From Promethearchaeota archaeon (GTDB lineage: Archaea; Asgardarchaeota; Lokiarchaeia; Sigynarchaeales; SOKP01): 5,041 nt of DNA. Where the stretch lies: assembly GCA_019057975.1 (NCBI GenBank), contig JAHLWJ010000343.1, positions 1 through 5,041 on the forward strand, given 5' to 3'. Both the position numbers and the translations under genes were made by a program. Every line of letters begins with the position of its first letter. Within the stretch, counting starts at the first letter, position 1. The notes beneath the pieces were generated by a model that saw only the letters and a list, made by a program, of their open reading frames with translations, was not told the DNA's origin and did no database searches. Positions 1-5,041 of the stretch are shown here, one piece after another.

Positions 1-13
1 GCCCAATTTTATC

Positions 14-25
14 TGGTTCTAACCA
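14..25. repeat. Short inverted repeat upstream of leader copy 1
   Basis: Five-base arms TGGTT and AACCA are separated by CT. It lies 25 bases upstream of leader copy 1. It is short enough to arise by chance, and is listed because the other two leader copies also have an inverted repeat just upstream. The GGTT/AACC ends match the outer ends of the palindrome at 762-783. No function can be assigned. Confidence 0.25.
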
Positions 26-50
26 CATCACATATTAGAATCGCTTATAC

Positions 51-155
51 GATTGCAAAAATTCGGTCTAAATCATTTTTTAAGATAGTAAACAGTTTTG
101 TTTTACAAATCAAATATTTTTATGATTTGTTAAAAATTTGAATTAAAAGTGAAAT
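51..155 (+). promoter_or_regulatory. Conserved leader element, copy 1 (upstream of the four-helix membrane protein gene)
   Basis: This is the first of three copies of an intergenic element of about 105 bp (others at 799-901 and 2594-2699). Positions 51-111 align without gaps to 799-859 with 54 of 61 identical, and to 2594-2654 with 48 of 61. The shared blocks are a GATTG start, GTCTAAAT, a T-run followed by TAAG, an AGTTTTGTTTTACAAATC-like block, a TTTGTTAAAAATTT-like A/T block and a terminal GTGA. GTAAA (88-92) and TTTAC (102-106) can form a 5-bp stem. Unlike the other copies, its GTGA (149-152) is not followed six bases later by a start codon (AAA stands there), and the gene begins only at 241. 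It is either a promoter and long 5' leader or a copy that lost its original gene. Confidence 0.7.
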
Positions 156-204
156 AAAAAATCAAAATTAAACTCTTGGGTACAGTTCTTTAAATTTCAC
201 TTTT
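145..204. repeat. Perfect 11-bp inverted repeat in the 5' spacer of the first gene
   Basis: AAAAGTGAAAT at 145-155 is the exact reverse complement of ATTTCACTTTT at 194-204, with a 38-base spacer. The left arm contains the terminal GTGA of leader copy 1. If transcribed, the arms could pair and hide that GTGA, leaving the GGTGA at 230-234 exposed. The arms are A/T-rich, so the stem would be weak. Regulation by this structure is inference. Confidence 0.45.
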
Positions 205-229
205 CTATTAAAGAATCTAAAAAAATGTT

Positions 230-234
230 GGTGA
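230..234 (+). promoter_or_regulatory. Ribosome-binding site GGTGA deciding a GTG start
   Basis: GGTGA is complementary to the ATCACCTCC tail of archaeal 16S rRNA and ends six bases before the GTG at 241. An in-frame TGA at 232-234 overlaps the site, so no start codon further upstream is possible. This fixes the unusual GTG start of the downstream gene. Confidence 0.7.
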
Positions 235-240
235 ATAATA

Positions 241-627
241 GTGGGACGAATAAAAGGGATTTTAGCCATATCGATTGGGATTTATATTTTAATTACGTTC
301 CTCGGTATAATATTTCAAGTTTTAAGTATTCGACCAGATATAGCAATTGCTTTCATAGTTAATTTTATAGTTTTTTGGATTTTTACATTTCTGATCCCTG
401 GAATACTTTCAATAGCAAGATATAAAATAAGCGATAAGTCGAAGTGGTGGTATATGATTGCCCCGGTAGCTTCACTTTTAATGTTAGTCTATATGATATT
501 GATAATAAGTTTTTACGGAGATAATTTTTGGAATTATTTCGCTCAATATTTTATTTATGCCATAGGAGCATCAATACTCCTAAGTCTTATAATCATTTGC
601 TATGCCCATCAGGAGGGTGGTTTCTGA
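241..627 (+). CDS. Small four-helix integral membrane protein, unknown function
   Basis: This is a 128-residue protein starting at GTG. The start is supported by GGTGA six bases upstream and by an in-frame stop at 232-234. Four hydrophobic segments are visible, at about residues 6-28, 33-58, 70-92 and 102-121. The basic N-terminus (GRIK) and the basic loop between helices 2 and 3 (RYKISDKSK, 60-68) suggest both termini and that loop are cytoplasmic. No catalytic, metal-binding or transporter motif is recognisable, and I cannot name a family. Aromatic residues cluster at helix ends (FWIF, KWWYM, NFWNYF), as is usual at membrane interfaces. The gene stands alone: it is preceded by leader copy 1 and followed by a T11 tract, so it is probably monocistronic. 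It shares an upstream element with the two surface-protein genes downstream, which hints at an envelope-related role, but this is only inference. Confidence 0.75.
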   Translation: MGRIKGILAISIGIYILITFLGIIFQVLSIRPDIAIAFIVNFIVFWIFTFLIPGILSIARYKISDKSKWWYMIAPVASLLMLVYMILIISFYGDNFWNYFAQYFIYAIGASILLSLIIICYAHQEGGF

Positions 628-671
628 ATTATTACCAAAAAAAACTCCGAACTGCTTAAAAAATTAATTTT

Positions 672-706
672 ATCTGAATCAGATTAATATACAAATTTTT
701 TTTTTT
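672..706 (+). terminator. T11 terminator tract with short inverted repeat
   Basis: Eleven consecutive T lie at 696-706, followed by more T-rich sequence to about 720. They sit 69 bases after the stop codon at 627. ATCTGA (672-677) and TCAGAT (679-684) form an inverted repeat with a one-base centre just before the tract; as RNA only about four pairs could close. Archaeal RNA polymerase terminates at T-runs without needing a strong hairpin, so the T-run is the main evidence. Confidence 0.65.
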
Positions 707-747
707 AATTTTCTTATTTTAAAATTAATCCAAATTGAATAATTACT

Positions 748-762
748 CACTGCTTAGTGCAG
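748..762. repeat. Overlapping small hairpins abutting the palindrome
   Basis: CACT (748-751) can pair with AGTG (756-759) around GCTT. Alternatively CTGC (750-753) can pair with GCAG (759-762) around TTAGT. The two are mutually exclusive and run directly into the 22-bp palindrome. They are short and may be chance, but the density of symmetry in 748-783 is higher than in the surrounding spacer. Confidence 0.25.
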
Positions 763-783
763 GTTAAATGATATCATTTAACC
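762..783. promoter_or_regulatory. Perfect 22-bp palindrome, candidate operator
   Basis: GGTTAAATGAT at 762-772 is followed at once by its exact reverse complement ATCATTTAACC at 773-783. It ends 15 bases before leader copy 2 and 121 bases before the start codon at 905. A perfect two-fold site of two helical turns is typical of binding sites for dimeric winged-helix or ribbon-helix-helix regulators. It lies well downstream of the T-run ending the previous gene, so it is not an obvious terminator. The regulator is not in this window, and the role as operator is inferred. Confidence 0.5.
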
Positions 784-798
784 CTAATTCATTTATAA

Positions 799-901
799 GA
801 TTGTAAAAAATCAGTCTAAATCTTTTTTTAAGTCAGTAAATAGTTTTGTTTTACAAATCTTATCTTTTTGTGATTTAATAAAAATTTTAATTTAGTGAAA
901 A
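799..901 (+). promoter_or_regulatory. Conserved leader element, copy 2 (upstream of the eight-repeat protein gene)
   Basis: This is the second copy of the shared element. Positions 799-859 match copy 1 at 54 of 61 and copy 3 at 49 of 61 bases, without gaps. Its A/T block GATTTAATAAAAATTTTAA at 872-890 is identical to 2664-2682 in copy 3. GTAAA (836-840) and TTTAC (850-854) can pair. ATTTATAA at 791-798, just before the element, is a candidate TATA box that would place most of the element in the 5' untranslated RNA. Alternatively the A/T block itself is the TATA box and the message is almost leaderless. The GTGA at the 3' end argues for the first reading. Confidence 0.75.
895..898 (+). promoter_or_regulatory. 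Ribosome-binding site GTGA favouring the second of two ATGs
   Basis: GTGA ends three bases before the ATG at 902 and six bases before the ATG at 905. The other two genes in the window both have six bases between GGTGA or GTGA and the start codon, so 905 is the better-spaced start. Confidence 0.5.
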
Positions 902-904
902 ATG

Positions 905-2491
905 ATGAGAAAAAAAAAATTAAAAGTTTTAGTATTGATATTATTTTTGCTTTTACCAATAGAAATTATTACAAGTTCTTATACTAATAAGTTTCCTTTT
1001 TTATTAGTACAATCAGACGAAGAAATAGCAAAAACTGAAATAAAAATGTCACTGAATTCTTTTGGAATTGATTGGTTACCGGACGGGACGCCTATAAGTA
1101 CGGCAAACAATAGCCAAAGGAATCCTCAAATTTGTAGCGATGGAGCTGGGGGTGCGATCATCACGTGGCAGGACTATAGAAGCGGATCGAATTACGATAT
1201 TTACGCGCAGAGAATTGATTCCTCCGGAAACTTACAGTGGACCGCTGATGGTGTAGTTATATGTACAGCAAGTGATAGCCAATATAGACCTGAAATATGT
1301 AGCGACGGAGCTGGGGGTGCGATCATCACATGGTACGACTATAGAAGCGGATTATACTCAGACATTTACGCGCAGAGAGTTAATCACTTAGGTAATATAC
1401 AATGGACTATAAATGGCACAGCTATCTGCACAGCAGGCGAATCCCAATTAGAGTCTCAATTATGCAGTAATGGGGCAGGTGGTGCAATCATTACTTGGAT
1501 TGACTATAGAAGTGGATCTAATTACGATATTTATGTTCAAGAAGTTAGTTCTTCCGGAGGTATCGAGTGGAATATCAATGGTACAGCTATATGCACAGTA
1601 AATAATGACCAAGTTAATCCTCAGATATTTAGCGATGGATCGGGAGGTGCGATCATTACCTGGAAGGGTGCGGGTATTTACGCACAGAGAATTGATTCCT
1701 CCGGAAATTTAAAGTGGACTGTAAATGGCACAGCTATCTGCACAGCAAATGGTGACAAAAGAATTCCTCAATTATGCAGTAATGGGGCAGGTGGTGCAAT
1801 CATTACTTGGTTTGACTATAGAAGTGGATCTAATTACGATATTTATGTTCAAGAAGTTAGTTCTTCCGGAGGTATCGAGTGGAATATCAATGGTACAGCC
1901 ATATGTACAGCAAATGGTGACCAATATGCTCCTCAATTATGTAGCGATGGATCGGGAGGTGCAATAATTACATGGTACGATGGTAGAAGTGGATCCACTG
2001 GTCGTAATATTTACTCTCAGTCTATAAATTCCTCTGGAAATATACAGTGGACTAACAATGGCGTAGCTATATGTACTGCCAATAATGACCAATGGGTCCC
2101 TCAATTGTGTAGCGATGGATCGGGGGGTGCGATAATTTCATGGTACGATAATAGAAATATCGATATAACAGGTCGAGATATTTATGTTCAGCTTATTAAT
2201 TCCGCAGGAAATGTCTTGTGGATATCCAACGGTTTAGCTATATGCACAGTAAATAATGACCAAATTAATCCTCATATATGCAGCGATGGAGCAGGAGGTG
2301 CGATAATTACATGGAACGATGGTAGAAGTGAAAACGACGATATTTATGCGCAACATATAAAATCGCCAGAATTAGAAGGTGGGGAGATTCCCTTTGTGAT
2401 CATTGTTGCTATCGTTTCCTTCATTGGAATTGCAGTACTTATTGGCATAGCAACAACTTTAATAATTAAGAAACGCCGTAAAATTGAATAA
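905..2491 (+). CDS. Membrane-anchored extracellular protein of eight ~55-residue repeats, probable beta-propeller
   Basis: This is a 528-residue protein from the ATG at 905. The ATG at 902 would add one Met, but 905 has the six-base spacing from GTGA. Residues 1-25 look like a signal peptide: MRKKK, then a Leu/Ile/Val core. Eight tandem repeats follow, beginning at Trp57, 112, 167, 222, 271, 326, 382 and 439 and ending near 487. Each repeat reads roughly W-x2-NG-x-AICTA, then PQ-I/L-CSDG, GGAIITW-x-D-x-R-SG, DIYAQ and a Gly turn. Repeats of this kind occur in many secreted bacterial and archaeal proteins (recalled, not searched). Four short strands per repeat fit propeller blades, and LNSFGID just before Trp57 could supply the closing strand. 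Residues 495-521 form one membrane helix followed by KKRRK, giving an outside domain and a tiny cytoplasmic tail. No catalytic motif is seen; ligand or partner binding at the cell surface is inferred. Repeat 4 lacks six residues of the DYRSG loop. Confidence 0.85.
   Translation: MRKKKLKVLVLILFLLLPIEIITSSYTNKFPFLLVQSDEEIAKTEIKMSLNSFGIDWLPDGTPISTANNSQRNPQICSDGAGGAIITWQDYRSGSNYDIYAQRIDSSGNLQWTADGVVICTASDSQYRPEICSDGAGGAIITWYDYRSGLYSDIYAQRVNHLGNIQWTINGTAICTAGESQLESQLCSNGAGGAIITWIDYRSGSNYDIYVQEVSSSGGIEWNINGTAICTVNNDQVNPQIFSDGSGGAIITWKGAGIYAQRIDSSGNLKWTVNGTAICTANGDKRIPQLCSNGAGGAIITWFDYRSGSNYDIYVQEVSSSGGIEWNINGTAICTANGDQYAPQLCSDGSGGAIITWYDGRSGSTGRNIYSQSINSSGNIQWTNNGVAICTANNDQWVPQLCSDGSGGAIISWYDNRNIDITGRDIYVQLINSAGNVLWISNGLAICTVNNDQINPHICSDGAGGAIITWNDGRSENDDIYAQHIKSPELEGGEIPFVIIVAIVSFIGIAVLIGIATTLIIKKRRKIE
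1073..2365 (+). repeat. Eight tandem coding repeats of about 165 bp
   Basis: Units start at 1073, 1238, 1403, 1568, 1715, 1880, 2048 and 2219, with lengths of 55, 55, 55, 49, 55, 56, 57 and about 49 codons. Length changes fall in the loop after the ITW-x-D strand: repeat 4 is shortened there (WKGAG), while repeats 6 and 7 are extended (STGRN, IDITGRD). The GGAI-I-S/T-W core is present in all eight. Repeats 1 and 2 keep near-identical DNA at 165-base spacing, for example 1133-1187 against 1298-1352. Conservation at protein level throughout shows the array is under selection as coding sequence. Confidence 0.9.
1411..1912 (+). repeat. Near-identical internal duplication, repeats 3 and 5 (offset 312 bp)
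   Basis: Positions 1411-1435 and 1723-1747 are identical. Positions 1455-1587 match 1767-1899 with a single difference (A1499 against T1811, Ile against Phe). Identity fades after about 1600/1912. The offset of 312 bases equals repeat 3 plus repeat 4. Other repeat pairs differ at many synonymous sites, so this pair was copied or homogenised recently. Confidence 0.85.
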
Positions 2492-2505
2492 AAACTAAAT
2501 TCATC

Positions 2506-2524
2506 TTTTCTTTTTTCTTAATTT
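2506..2524 (+). terminator. T-rich terminator after the eight-repeat gene
   Basis: A pyrimidine-rich stretch with T4 at 2506-2509, T6 at 2511-2516 and further T lies 15 bases after the stop codon at 2489-2491. No hairpin precedes it. This fits intrinsic archaeal termination and suggests the next gene has its own promoter. Confidence 0.55.
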
Positions 2525-2560
2525 CTAATTATCGAAGCATCAAAAGTTAACAAACCTATT

Positions 2561-2592
2561 CATTAAATCGATATAAAAATGATAATTTAATG
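2561..2592. repeat. Inverted repeat immediately upstream of leader copy 3
   Basis: CATTAAAT (2561-2568) is the exact reverse complement of ATTTAATG (2585-2592), with a 16-base spacer. The right arm ends one base before leader copy 3. It resembles the 762-783 palindrome in containing TTAAAT/ATTTAA halves but has a wide spacer and A/T-rich arms, so it may be chance. Confidence 0.35.
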
Positions 2593-2593
2593 T

Positions 2594-2699
2594 GATTGTA
2601 AAAATTCAGTCTAAATTATTTTATAAGTCAACAAGCAGTTATATTCTGCAAATCTTAATTTTTGATTTAATAAAAATTTTAAAAAAAAAGTGAAATTCA
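2594..2699 (+). promoter_or_regulatory. Conserved leader element, copy 3 (upstream of the LVIVD propeller gene)
   Basis: This is the third copy of the shared element. Positions 2594-2654 match copy 2 at 49 of 61 and copy 1 at 48 of 61 bases. A two-base gap near 2658 is followed by the 19-base block GATTTAATAAAAATTTTAA (2664-2682), identical to copy 2. The stem differs from the other copies: GCAG (2635-2638) pairs with CTGC (2646-2649) around a seven-base loop, shifted four bases on its left side. A run of nine A (2681-2689) precedes the GTGA at 2690-2693. Confidence 0.7.
2690..2693 (+). promoter_or_regulatory. Ribosome-binding site GTGA for the LVIVD propeller gene
   Basis: GTGA ends six bases before the ATG at 2700. 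The spacing is the same as for the first gene and for the preferred start of the second. It forms the 3' end of leader copy 3. Confidence 0.55.
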
Positions 2700-5041
2700 A
2701 TGAAAATTAAAACAAAAAAAGGAATATTATACTTAGGAGTTGCTTTTCTACTATGCCTTAACAGCATTTTTCCTTATATTCTCATTGAAAGTACCGTACT
2801 CGAAACGGATATTCAAGAAAAAAATCTACCAAGGCTTAGCAGTCAATATATTAATATAATTACTCCAGAAAATAAAACTTACATAGGAGGGATGCAAGGT
2901 TATTACCCTGCAACATATGGTTTTGAGAATGAGACACTAGGGTCAGATCCAATTGAATGGTTAAGTGCTCGTACTGGAGGGACCGTTCGTATAGTTGAAG
3001 AAGTAGGAACCCATAAGAATGTTGCAGAAATACGGGATATAGATAATTCTGGTTATGTTTCTTTTCTCAACCAATTTGATTCCAATAAAGTATCAGGAAC
3101 AGTCGAATTCTGGGTAAGTACAAATGATACATCTAAAGCATTTTATATGAGGATCTTAGCATCCATTTCAGAAAGAGCCGTGATGATGAGAATCGAAAAT
3201 AATTATATTTATTGTCAAGATTCTACTACTTGGAGGGTCGTAAAATCAATTTCAAATAATAAATGGTACCATTTCAGTATTGAATTTGATTGCTCAACTG
3301 ATACTTACAATTGTTGGATTGATGGGAATCTAGAAGCAGCAGATTATGGATTTAGAGACAGTGATATTAGTTCAGTTAGTAAGATACAGTTATATACCAC
3401 CAATATTGAGGTAGATTATGAGATATATGTTGATGCTGTAGGATATTCTTGGGATATTAATTACAATATTGGAGATAATTTTTATGAAGGACTATTGCTT
3501 AGTTTCACTAATAATACCAAGCTCGATTGGGTAGGTTATTCATTAGATGGTCAATCAACTAAAACTATTTATGGAAATACATCAATTCCAACACCTAATG
3601 ATGGATTACATAGTATTCAATTGTTTGGAAATGACTCATTGGGAACGGGATATCATTCAGATAAAAGATGGTTCAAAGTTGAAGCATTTTCAAATAATTA
3701 TATAGAAGACTTTACTACTACGACGTATATGGATGATCTTGCTACTAATTCTTCAGGATGGGGGTCTGGAGCCCTGAATTTACCGAACAAAAATTTAACT
3801 GTTAATGTTTTTGAAGCGCCAAGTAATTGGAGATCAAGCAAAGTTCAGATGTCTGGAGATATAGTATACTCTGCTAATTATTATAGATTTGAAATCCATG
3901 ATATTAGTAATCCGAGCGAACCAATTCTACTTTCAGCGTATTCAGATGGTTGTTATGACTTCGTTATATCTGGAAACTATGCATACATAGCAGCTTATCG
4001 TCATGGATTAATAATATTGGATATTTCAGATAAAAGCAATCCTAGTCTTTTAGGCTCGTGTGATAACTATCAGACTCATTCGAGTATTACTGATTTATAT
4101 GCAACGACTATTGAGATTAAGGGGGCATATGCTTACATTTGGGATATGATACATGAATTAATAGTAATCAATATTGCTGATCCTAGTAACCCCTTTAAAG
4201 CCGGAGATTGGCTTGAGAGTGGTGGATTTTATGGGGAAAAAATGATAATTAAAGACAATTACCTTTATTTATTAACTGGAAATGTAATAATTTTTGATAT
4301 AAGCAGCCCTACGAGCCCATCAGATGTGTATACTTATAATACAGGGACCTATTATGACACAGGAGTTATTTCTGGCAATTACTTATATTTACCTGGACAA
4401 TATACTTTAGACATCTTAAATATTATTACCCCTACAGCTCCTGCTTTTGTAAGTTCCACAAGTACTGGAGTATCTGGCCCACAGAGTATCGCTTTCGATA
4501 ATACTTTTGTCTATATAGGAGGTAATAGAATTGCATCACCCAATAATTACGGATTAGTTGAAATATACGATGTTTCTAATGTCGTAAATCCTCAATTTGA
4601 ATATAGGTATATATCTCCGTGTGCAGATCCTTCTCATAGTTCAATGATCGATACAATTGACGTAATAAATGGATTTTCGTTTATGTATGATTATAGAGGA
4701 TATTATATCATCGCAGATTTCAATTTAATCGATCAATATGAAGCAATAGCTATTGGTCAATCGTCATCAATATATTCGGGAACATCCAATGTATTATTGA
4801 CACAACTATTACTTACAGTTTCTGAAGAATTACCCTCGGATACAGGAATTACTTATTACATTTCCGCAGATAACGGAACCCACTGGGAGCAAATTATTCC
4901 AAATTCCGTTCATGCATTTGAATATCTAGGAAATCAACTAAAATGGAAAACTGTATTAACAACTTCTCACTTATATAGAACGCCACAATTAAATTCCTTA
5001 AGCATTGCATATTTACCATTATTAAATGGAACTATTTTATT
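2700..5041 (+). CDS. Mosaic surface protein with jelly-roll, Ig-like and seven-bladed LVIVD propeller domains (3' end outside window)
   Basis: The frame is open from ATG 2700 to the window edge: 780 complete codons, with the C-terminus missing. Residues 1-30 look like a signal peptide (MKIKTKK, then a hydrophobic stretch). Residues 54-77 (ITPENKTY to YGFEN) lead into a LamG/ConA-like jelly-roll to about 251, marked by GTVEFWV (133-139), KWYHFSIEFD (188-197) and CWIDG. About 258-336 is an Ig-like stalk ending DGLHSIQLFGND to WFKV. A linker containing SGWGSG precedes a propeller at about 377-690. Blade ends of the LVIVD type (hydrophobic run, D-I/V-S-x-x-x-NP) fall near residues 401, 441, 492, 533, 571, 624 and 673, giving seven blades; the last two or three are degenerate. 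A final beta module has YYISADNGTHW (719-729) and LKWKTVL (747-753). Many N-x-S/T sites suggest a glycosylated outside protein. LVIVD repeats are common in archaeal surface proteins but have no general activity assigned; adhesion or ligand binding is inferred. A C-terminal anchor may lie beyond the edge. Confidence 0.85.
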   Translation, partial: MKIKTKKGILYLGVAFLLCLNSIFPYILIESTVLETDIQEKNLPRLSSQYINIITPENKTYIGGMQGYYPATYGFENETLGSDPIEWLSARTGGTVRIVEEVGTHKNVAEIRDIDNSGYVSFLNQFDSNKVSGTVEFWVSTNDTSKAFYMRILASISERAVMMRIENNYIYCQDSTTWRVVKSISNNKWYHFSIEFDCSTDTYNCWIDGNLEAADYGFRDSDISSVSKIQLYTTNIEVDYEIYVDAVGYSWDINYNIGDNFYEGLLLSFTNNTKLDWVGYSLDGQSTKTIYGNTSIPTPNDGLHSIQLFGNDSLGTGYHSDKRWFKVEAFSNNYIEDFTTTTYMDDLATNSSGWGSGALNLPNKNLTVNVFEAPSNWRSSKVQMSGDIVYSANYYRFEIHDISNPSEPILLSAYSDGCYDFVISGNYAYIAAYRHGLIILDISDKSNPSLLGSCDNYQTHSSITDLYATTIEIKGAYAYIWDMIHELIVINIADPSNPFKAGDWLESGGFYGEKMIIKDNYLYLLTGNVIIFDISSPTSPSDVYTYNTGTYYDTGVISGNYLYLPGQYTLDILNIITPTAPAFVSSTSTGVSGPQSIAFDNTFVYIGGNRIASPNNYGLVEIYDVSNVVNPQFEYRYISPCADPSHSSMIDTIDVINGFSFMYDYRGYYIIADFNLIDQYEAIAIGQSSSIYSGTSNVLLTQLLLTVSEELPSDTGITYYISADNGTHWEQIIPNSVHAFEYLGNQLKWKTVLTTSHLYRTPQLNSLSIAYLPLLNGTIL
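3831..4770 (+). other. Seven LVIVD-type propeller blades within the partial gene
   Basis: The blades repeat a pattern of a G-N/D-x-A/L-Y-hydrophobic strand, a GL-x-I-hydrophobic-D-I-S strand and a turn rich in D/N, S and P. Examples are GLIILDISDKSNP (residues 434-446), LIVINIADPSNP (487-498) and VIIFDISSPTSP (529-540). Successive blade ends are 40, 51, 41, 38, 53 and 49 residues apart. The seventh (IIADFNLIDQYEAI) has lost the NP turn. The blade count is read by eye; the first five are clear, the last two less so. Confidence 0.7.

Follow-up and report, generated by a model that had tools for sequence, protein, structure and literature searches.

Why should one leader of about 105 bp stand before three genes in a row? 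The question is raised by a locus of a Promethearchaeota archaeon (GenBank assembly GCA_019057975.1, contig JAHLWJ010000343.1, positions 1 to 5,041; this whole stretch of 5,041 nt is here called the window), in which a first-pass annotation had described related elements at 51-155, 799-901 and 2594-2699. Our analysis indicates that this stretch most likely serves as the control site, made up of a regulator-binding site and a TATA box, of a small network of Lokiarchaeal surface-protein genes. We give a probability of about 0.68 to the reading that the elements are promoters of a surface-protein regulon under the control of a membrane protein and a winged-helix regulator that are encoded together beside the window.

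All three elements are present in the window at these positions, and their similarity is real and far beyond chance. Over 61 ungapped bases, copies 1 and 2 are identical at 54, copies 1 and 3 at 48, and copies 2 and 3 at 49, which agrees with the range of 48 to 54 first reported. Local alignments of the three upstream regions scored 129, 87 and 102 (maxima of 44, 54 and 49 among 500 shuffles each), and a 23-nt core pattern, with up to three mismatches allowed, matched the window three times without any mismatch, where 0.01 matches were expected. The identical block in the 3′ part of copies 2 and 3, given as 19 bases, does exist but comprises 20 (at 871 and 2663). GTGA is part of the ordinary archaeal Shine-Dalgarno sequence. 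Its reported spacing of six bases before a start codon is correct for copy 3 (GTGA at 2690, ATG at 2700), while in copy 2 the GTGA at 895 lies three bases 5′ of the first ATG (902) and six bases 5′ of the second (905). Copy 1 does not abut its gene; its GTGA is at 149 and the element ends at 155, 85 bases 5′ of gene 1, which starts with GTG at 241 and has its own GGTGA at 230, six bases 5′ of that start. The likeness of copy 1 to the other copies continues past the place of the start codon (149-172), with ATC there where copy 3 has ATG; another gene may formerly have followed copy 1.

When a collection of species genomes was scanned with the core pattern, three exact matches with the spacing of the window were found in contig NJBI01000001.1 of Candidatus Lokiarchaeota archaeon Loki_b31. 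Window and contig differ at 18 positions, two of them within element 3, and on this comparison the window is evidently from another strain of the same species; the Loki_b31 genome (G001, 3.5 Mb) was thus used as a stand-in, and L051 denotes the first 20 kb of NJBI01000001.1. The same scan matched 16 stretches in other organisms, once each, and two pattern matches in IMG/VR lay inside apparent protein-coding DNA of near-identical contigs; both sets were taken as chance.

Nested in the element is a more widespread core of 36 bp, in which an asymmetric site, TTGTARAAWWTYRGTCYWAAT, stands directly 5′ of a TATA box. In the window the cores occupy 51-86, 799-834 and 2594-2629, all on the plus strand and 5′ of genes 1, 2 and 3, respectively; they were recognized in the alignments, and both models described below (R1 and R2) match them in Loki_b31. 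The candidate regulator sites lie at about 53-73, 801-821 and 2596-2616, and the TATA boxes, which are poor in copies 1 and 2 (TTTTTAA at 77-83 and 825-831), are better in copy 3 (TTTATAA at 2620-2626). A fourth, shorter core, again with TTTATAA, is situated 2.4 kb left of copy 1 on the opposite strand; 32 of its bases, TATA box included, are 94% identical to copy 3, and a 246-aa open reading frame (ORF) begins 66 bases past the 36-bp core. Common to all four cores are TTG(T/C)AAAAA(A/T)TC(A/G)GTCTAA and the TATA box. In an alignment of 36 ungapped sites, T27-T29 and A32 are among the conserved columns, so that the TATA box is fixed relative to the site and a gene start follows shortly 3′, as in an archaeal promoter. 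The site itself is no palindrome; its best dyad symmetry is 0.43, whereas column-permuted controls average 0.47.

Between copy 4 and copy 1 lies an operon of two genes on the minus strand. The first, divergent from the window and 0.2 kb to its left, encodes a 242-aa winged-helix protein (L051:5100-5828), and the second encodes a 428-aa membrane protein (L051:3775-5061); the folds of both are predicted. Residues 82-149 of the regulator match the HVO_0163-type N-terminal helix-turn-helix domain (Pfam PF24266, E 8.6e-5), as do 19 of 29 regulator homologues at E 0.001, although its score (23) falls short of the curated cut-off (31) and further winged-helix-like parts lie on both sides of the match. 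For the membrane protein, seven helices (N terminus outside, C terminus inside) and a cytoplasmic domain with a longin fold are predicted. Seven-helix receptors, namely, G-protein-coupled receptors and ACER-type proteins, are among the closest known systems; a weak match to Pfam WbqC (E 0.005) in 2 of 33 homologues was disregarded. Several observations on this operon in relatives may be added. More distant relatives carry weaker homologues in many copies, with 10 to 17 matches each in G083, G074, G068 and G070; these cover roughly residues 1-355, with the seven helices and the longin domain, and apparently form a wider family. In L179, L183 and L185-L189, about 120 aa of additional helical sequence intervene between site and regulator, either as a separate ORF or fused before the regulator. 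Lastly, the membrane proteins of L182 (G023:C38) and L051 are 75% identical, whereas the adjacent regulators are only about 50% identical, a discrepancy that may reflect replacement of the regulator or a rapidly changing specificity.

The link between core and operon comes from searches in relatives. With a weight matrix made from the four cores we scanned the available loci, those fetched for a pattern or element-DNA match (L003, L020, L060, L010, L018 and L015) being set aside; L103, L117, L118 and L126, of which L103 and L117 hold the locus itself, were kept outside the control set. Apart from the loci set aside, the best foreign matches fell in loci with a regulator homologue. At a shuffle-based threshold, 12 of 29 regulator loci had a match, compared with 1 of 40 control loci (p 5.5e-5), and after iteration these numbers became 24 of 29 and 0 of 40; the gene 1 homologues (L104-L116), which belong to the control set, had no site after iteration. 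Among the 40 iterated sites, 7 fell at conserved positions of the membrane-protein gene and were discarded as reflecting conservation of the coding sequence; no locus depended on them. Of the remaining 33, all but L086:2590 were combined with our four cores into R1, a covariance model without structure that was built on 36 sites and searched in 127 genomes.

At E < 1e-3, R1 listed 108 matches, 55 of them within 6 kb of a regulator homologue (61 if L159 and L162, where a homologue was found later, are counted). The training set included 32 sites from regulator loci; with all training-site matches removed, 74 of the listed matches remain, of which 27 are near a regulator homologue, a neighborhood that makes up about 0.16% of the sequence, and our probabilities were fixed after this recount. 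R2, built from the four cores of our own locus only, was searched in 126 foreign genomes, and its best match (G034:C95:59930) lies 1.4 kb past the closest regulator homologue, which is 55% identical. Presence of motif and regulator was also compared across the 97 genomes in which both had been searched for; a close regulator homologue (E < 1e-40) exists in 28 of these genomes. The motif (E < 1e-3) occurs in all of these 28 and in 7 of the 69 others when training sites are counted, which 25 of the 28 had supplied; without training sites it occurs in 23 of 28 and 7 of 69 (p 1e-11) or, among G001-G061 only, in 23 of 28 and 6 of 33 (p 6e-7).

The position of the sites is that of promoters. In 40 fetched regions, none of the 62 sites falls within an ORF of at least 80 aa (when ORFs from 60 aa are considered, two sites, in L160 and L185, overlap short ones), and an ORF starts within 350 nt of 53 of them, with medians of 62 and 67.5 nt. 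Of the matches around the regulators, 27 are located beyond the operon and 17 upstream of it, all on the strand of the operon, and 11 are located upstream on the opposite strand. The same site also precedes unlinked genes, its direction relative to the gene being kept; in Loki_b31 the listed matches are on C61 (4), C14 (2), C78, C82, C16 and C46. In six regions (L162 and L182-L186), two sites stand before one gene. As to which genes are served away from the regulators, 20 regions, chosen mainly by score before the genes were seen, cover part of the 53 far R1 matches; L159 and L162 were removed from this target test on account of their regulator homologues, and for 5 of its 21 sites no ORF began within 150 nt. 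A hydrophobic N-terminal segment was found in 11 of 16 targets compared with 14 of 64 other ORFs, or, by family, in 7 of 11 compared with 12 of 53 (p 0.012), and most targets other than the operon would, by this feature, be secreted or anchored proteins. The expectation that a profile search would reveal more copies has thus been borne out for the core, further examples of which are found in the genome and its relatives, between genes, directed toward them and enriched before those with a hydrophobic N terminus.

Taken together, the motif, its position, its distribution and its association with the operon are observed, and we propose the following mechanism. Each element would be an archaeal promoter in which the regulator site of about 21 bp (TTGTARAAWWTYRGTCYWAAT) is followed by the TATA box, a short 5′ untranslated region (UTR) and a ribosome site; the regulator site lies at a fixed distance directly 5′ of the TATA box, where the transcription factor B recognition element (BRE) would be. 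The 242-aa winged-helix protein is the likely binder of the core. The membrane protein, to judge by its predicted fold, may sense something at the cell surface, and its longin domain, directly or through a small GTPase, may alter the activity of the regulator, which would in turn recruit (or block) TATA-binding protein (TBP) and transcription factor B (TFB) at surface-protein promoters and, in some of the relatives, act at its own operon as well. From the position of the site, activation appears somewhat more likely than repression, and the weak TATA boxes of copies 1 and 2 also incline us to activation. Placed over the BRE and directly 5′ of the TATA box, a site could serve an activator by which TBP/TFB are recruited (PMC7408454); the same position also suits a repressor that blocks them.

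Several points weigh against this interpretation. The secretion test is modest at the family level and rests on a simple hydropathy rule rather than a trained program, and the targets in L174, L175, L178 and L195, which we take to be flavodoxin-like, dehydrogenase-like and (the last two) isomerase-like, do not look secreted. Only 2 of the 35 foreign matches listed for R2 are at regulator loci (p 0.0013), and the rest resemble chance matches of a weak model made from four cores alone. Five of the 28 regulator genomes have no match beyond training sites, the motif is present in 7 of the 69 genomes that lack a close regulator homologue, and 18 of 51 regulator contigs lack a site within 6 kb. Sites at orthologous places are not independent of one another. 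Moreover, the regulator of this locus has no site on its own strand directly upstream, unlike the 17 upstream matches elsewhere.

One alternative is that the core is a true regulon promoter bound by some other factor, the winged-helix/membrane-protein operon being merely one of its targets. Those same 7 genomes, and the 17 upstream matches that place the motif 5′ of the operon itself, would be expected in that case, but 27 of the 74 independent matches are near the genes of this particular regulator and the best foreign match of R2 is at its closest homologue, and we consider another factor unlikely. It is less likely still that local duplication is the whole explanation, with paralogous units having their leader and 3′ end in common by descent and no common regulation. 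Much of the outer similarity does probably have this origin. The full 105-bp element occurs three times in the Loki_b31 genome, each time in this one locus, and the next DNA match there is 35 bases long (E 6e-4); in 195 relatives, 74 of which have partial matches at E 0.01, none of the matches listed spans the element, the widest covering 87 bases at 72% identity. Genes 2 and 3 are, furthermore, alike at both ends, their 3′ ends (anchor, stop and flank) being 84% identical over about 100 bp, with no third such place in the Loki_b31 genome at E 1e-5, and the initial contention that gene duplication does not explain the leaders is therefore not right for these two genes. The full-length similarity is best read as a local tandem duplication of a transcription unit with an exchanged middle; it would extend to 105 bp because the unit (promoter and leader, joined by the 3′ end in the case of genes 2 and 3) was duplicated. 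However, copy 4 stands on the other strand before an unrelated gene, and further cores stand at unlinked genes and in the genomes of relatives. A common regulon promoter, one of the possibilities first offered, is thus supported for the 36-bp core but not for the 105-bp element as such.

The remaining explanations fare much worse. A generic strong A/T-rich promoter untied to a regulator, which had been named at the outset as a possible refutation, would account for the TATA box within the core, and the genomes are A/T-rich; nevertheless, R1 finds at most 21 matches per genome at E 0.1, and 62 of the 69 genomes without a close regulator homologue have no match at E 1e-3, a distribution that speaks against this very improbable reading. 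A structured leader RNA, also suggested at first, or a riboswitch would suit a 5′ leader common to three genes but is more doubtful again: there was no Rfam match at E up to 1, six stretches had folding energies like those of shuffles (z -1.15 to 0.49), none of the matches listed in the 195 relatives is full length, and the conserved part spans the TATA box, 5′ of the presumed transcript start. The head of a recombination cassette exchanging surface genes, to which the common ends and different middles of genes 2 and 3 had lent some appeal, can practically be dismissed, given that there are no full copies beyond the locus, and hence no dispersed copies as in an interspersed repeat or mobile element, and that, across the examined regions, the core goes together with TATA boxes and gene starts.

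In the promoter reading favored here, the locus resembles those archaeal activator promoters whose regulator site abuts or overlaps the BRE (PMC7408454), both in the placement of the regulator site at a fixed distance directly 5′ of the TATA box and in the weak TATA boxes of copies 1 and 2; it differs in that neither the site sequence nor the regulator family could be matched to a described system, and activation here is presumed. In bacterial two-component systems and other membrane-sensor/regulator pairs, a membrane protein and a DNA-binding protein are encoded together near their targets. The present operon has the same arrangement, but unlike in two-component pairs, no kinase or receiver domain was matched in Pfam and NCBIfam scans. 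Longin domains are plentiful in Lokiarchaeum, for which PMC4917890 gives 41 longin-domain proteins, five fused to Arf-like GTPases; here, the longin domain would instead follow a seven-helix membrane domain, beside the gene of a transcription regulator. We found no description of the motif, the regulator or the pair in open-access papers (preprints excluded).

One broader, albeit tentative, possibility, to which we give somewhat less than an even chance, is that this is an undescribed form of Lokiarchaeal transmembrane signaling in which a seven-helix receptor with a cytoplasmic longin domain, encoded together with its own winged-helix factor, sets the expression of surface proteins through a dedicated, TATA-joined site; each genome would have several paralogous copies of the system, and many of these would adjoin their own targets. 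If so, the cell could choose among sets of surface proteins, and a fold that eukaryotes use in SNAREs and coat proteins, the longin fold, would relay signals to the chromosome. Asgard archaea are the closest known archaeal relatives of eukaryotes, and little seems to be known of their gene regulation; the locus supplies a concrete site open to testing, together with candidates for its regulator and for a membrane sensor that carries a longin domain; target genes can be listed, and many paralogous systems are available for comparison. In cryo-tomography (PMC9834061), a Lokiarchaeon has no ordered surface layer and bears numerous surface proteins instead.

The other features of the window, whose genes and leaders are on the plus strand, can be described briefly. 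The remainder of element 1 (87-155) holds the presumed transcript start and 5′ UTR and is probably common to copies 2 and 3 through the local duplication; the remainders of element 2 (835-901, with the GTGA at 895) and element 3 (2630-2699, with the GTGA at 2690) are likewise presumed 5′ UTRs. Gene 1 (241-627) encodes a hydrophobic protein of 128 aa with no Pfam or NCBIfam match. Gene 3 (2700-5041), an LVIVD-repeat protein gene, is cut by the end of the window; its product has 1090 aa in Loki_b31. Gene 2 (902-2491) encodes a 529-aa repeat protein, propeller-like, with a hydrophobic N terminus and a C-terminal membrane anchor; its 3′ end (2416-2523) is the part that recurs at the 3′ end of gene 3, beyond the window. 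About eight repeats in gene 2 (1033-2370) are alike also as DNA, in units of 154 nt spaced 147-171 nt apart, and directly 5′ of element 2 there is a perfect 22-bp palindrome, GGTTAAATGATATCATTTAACC, at 762-783.

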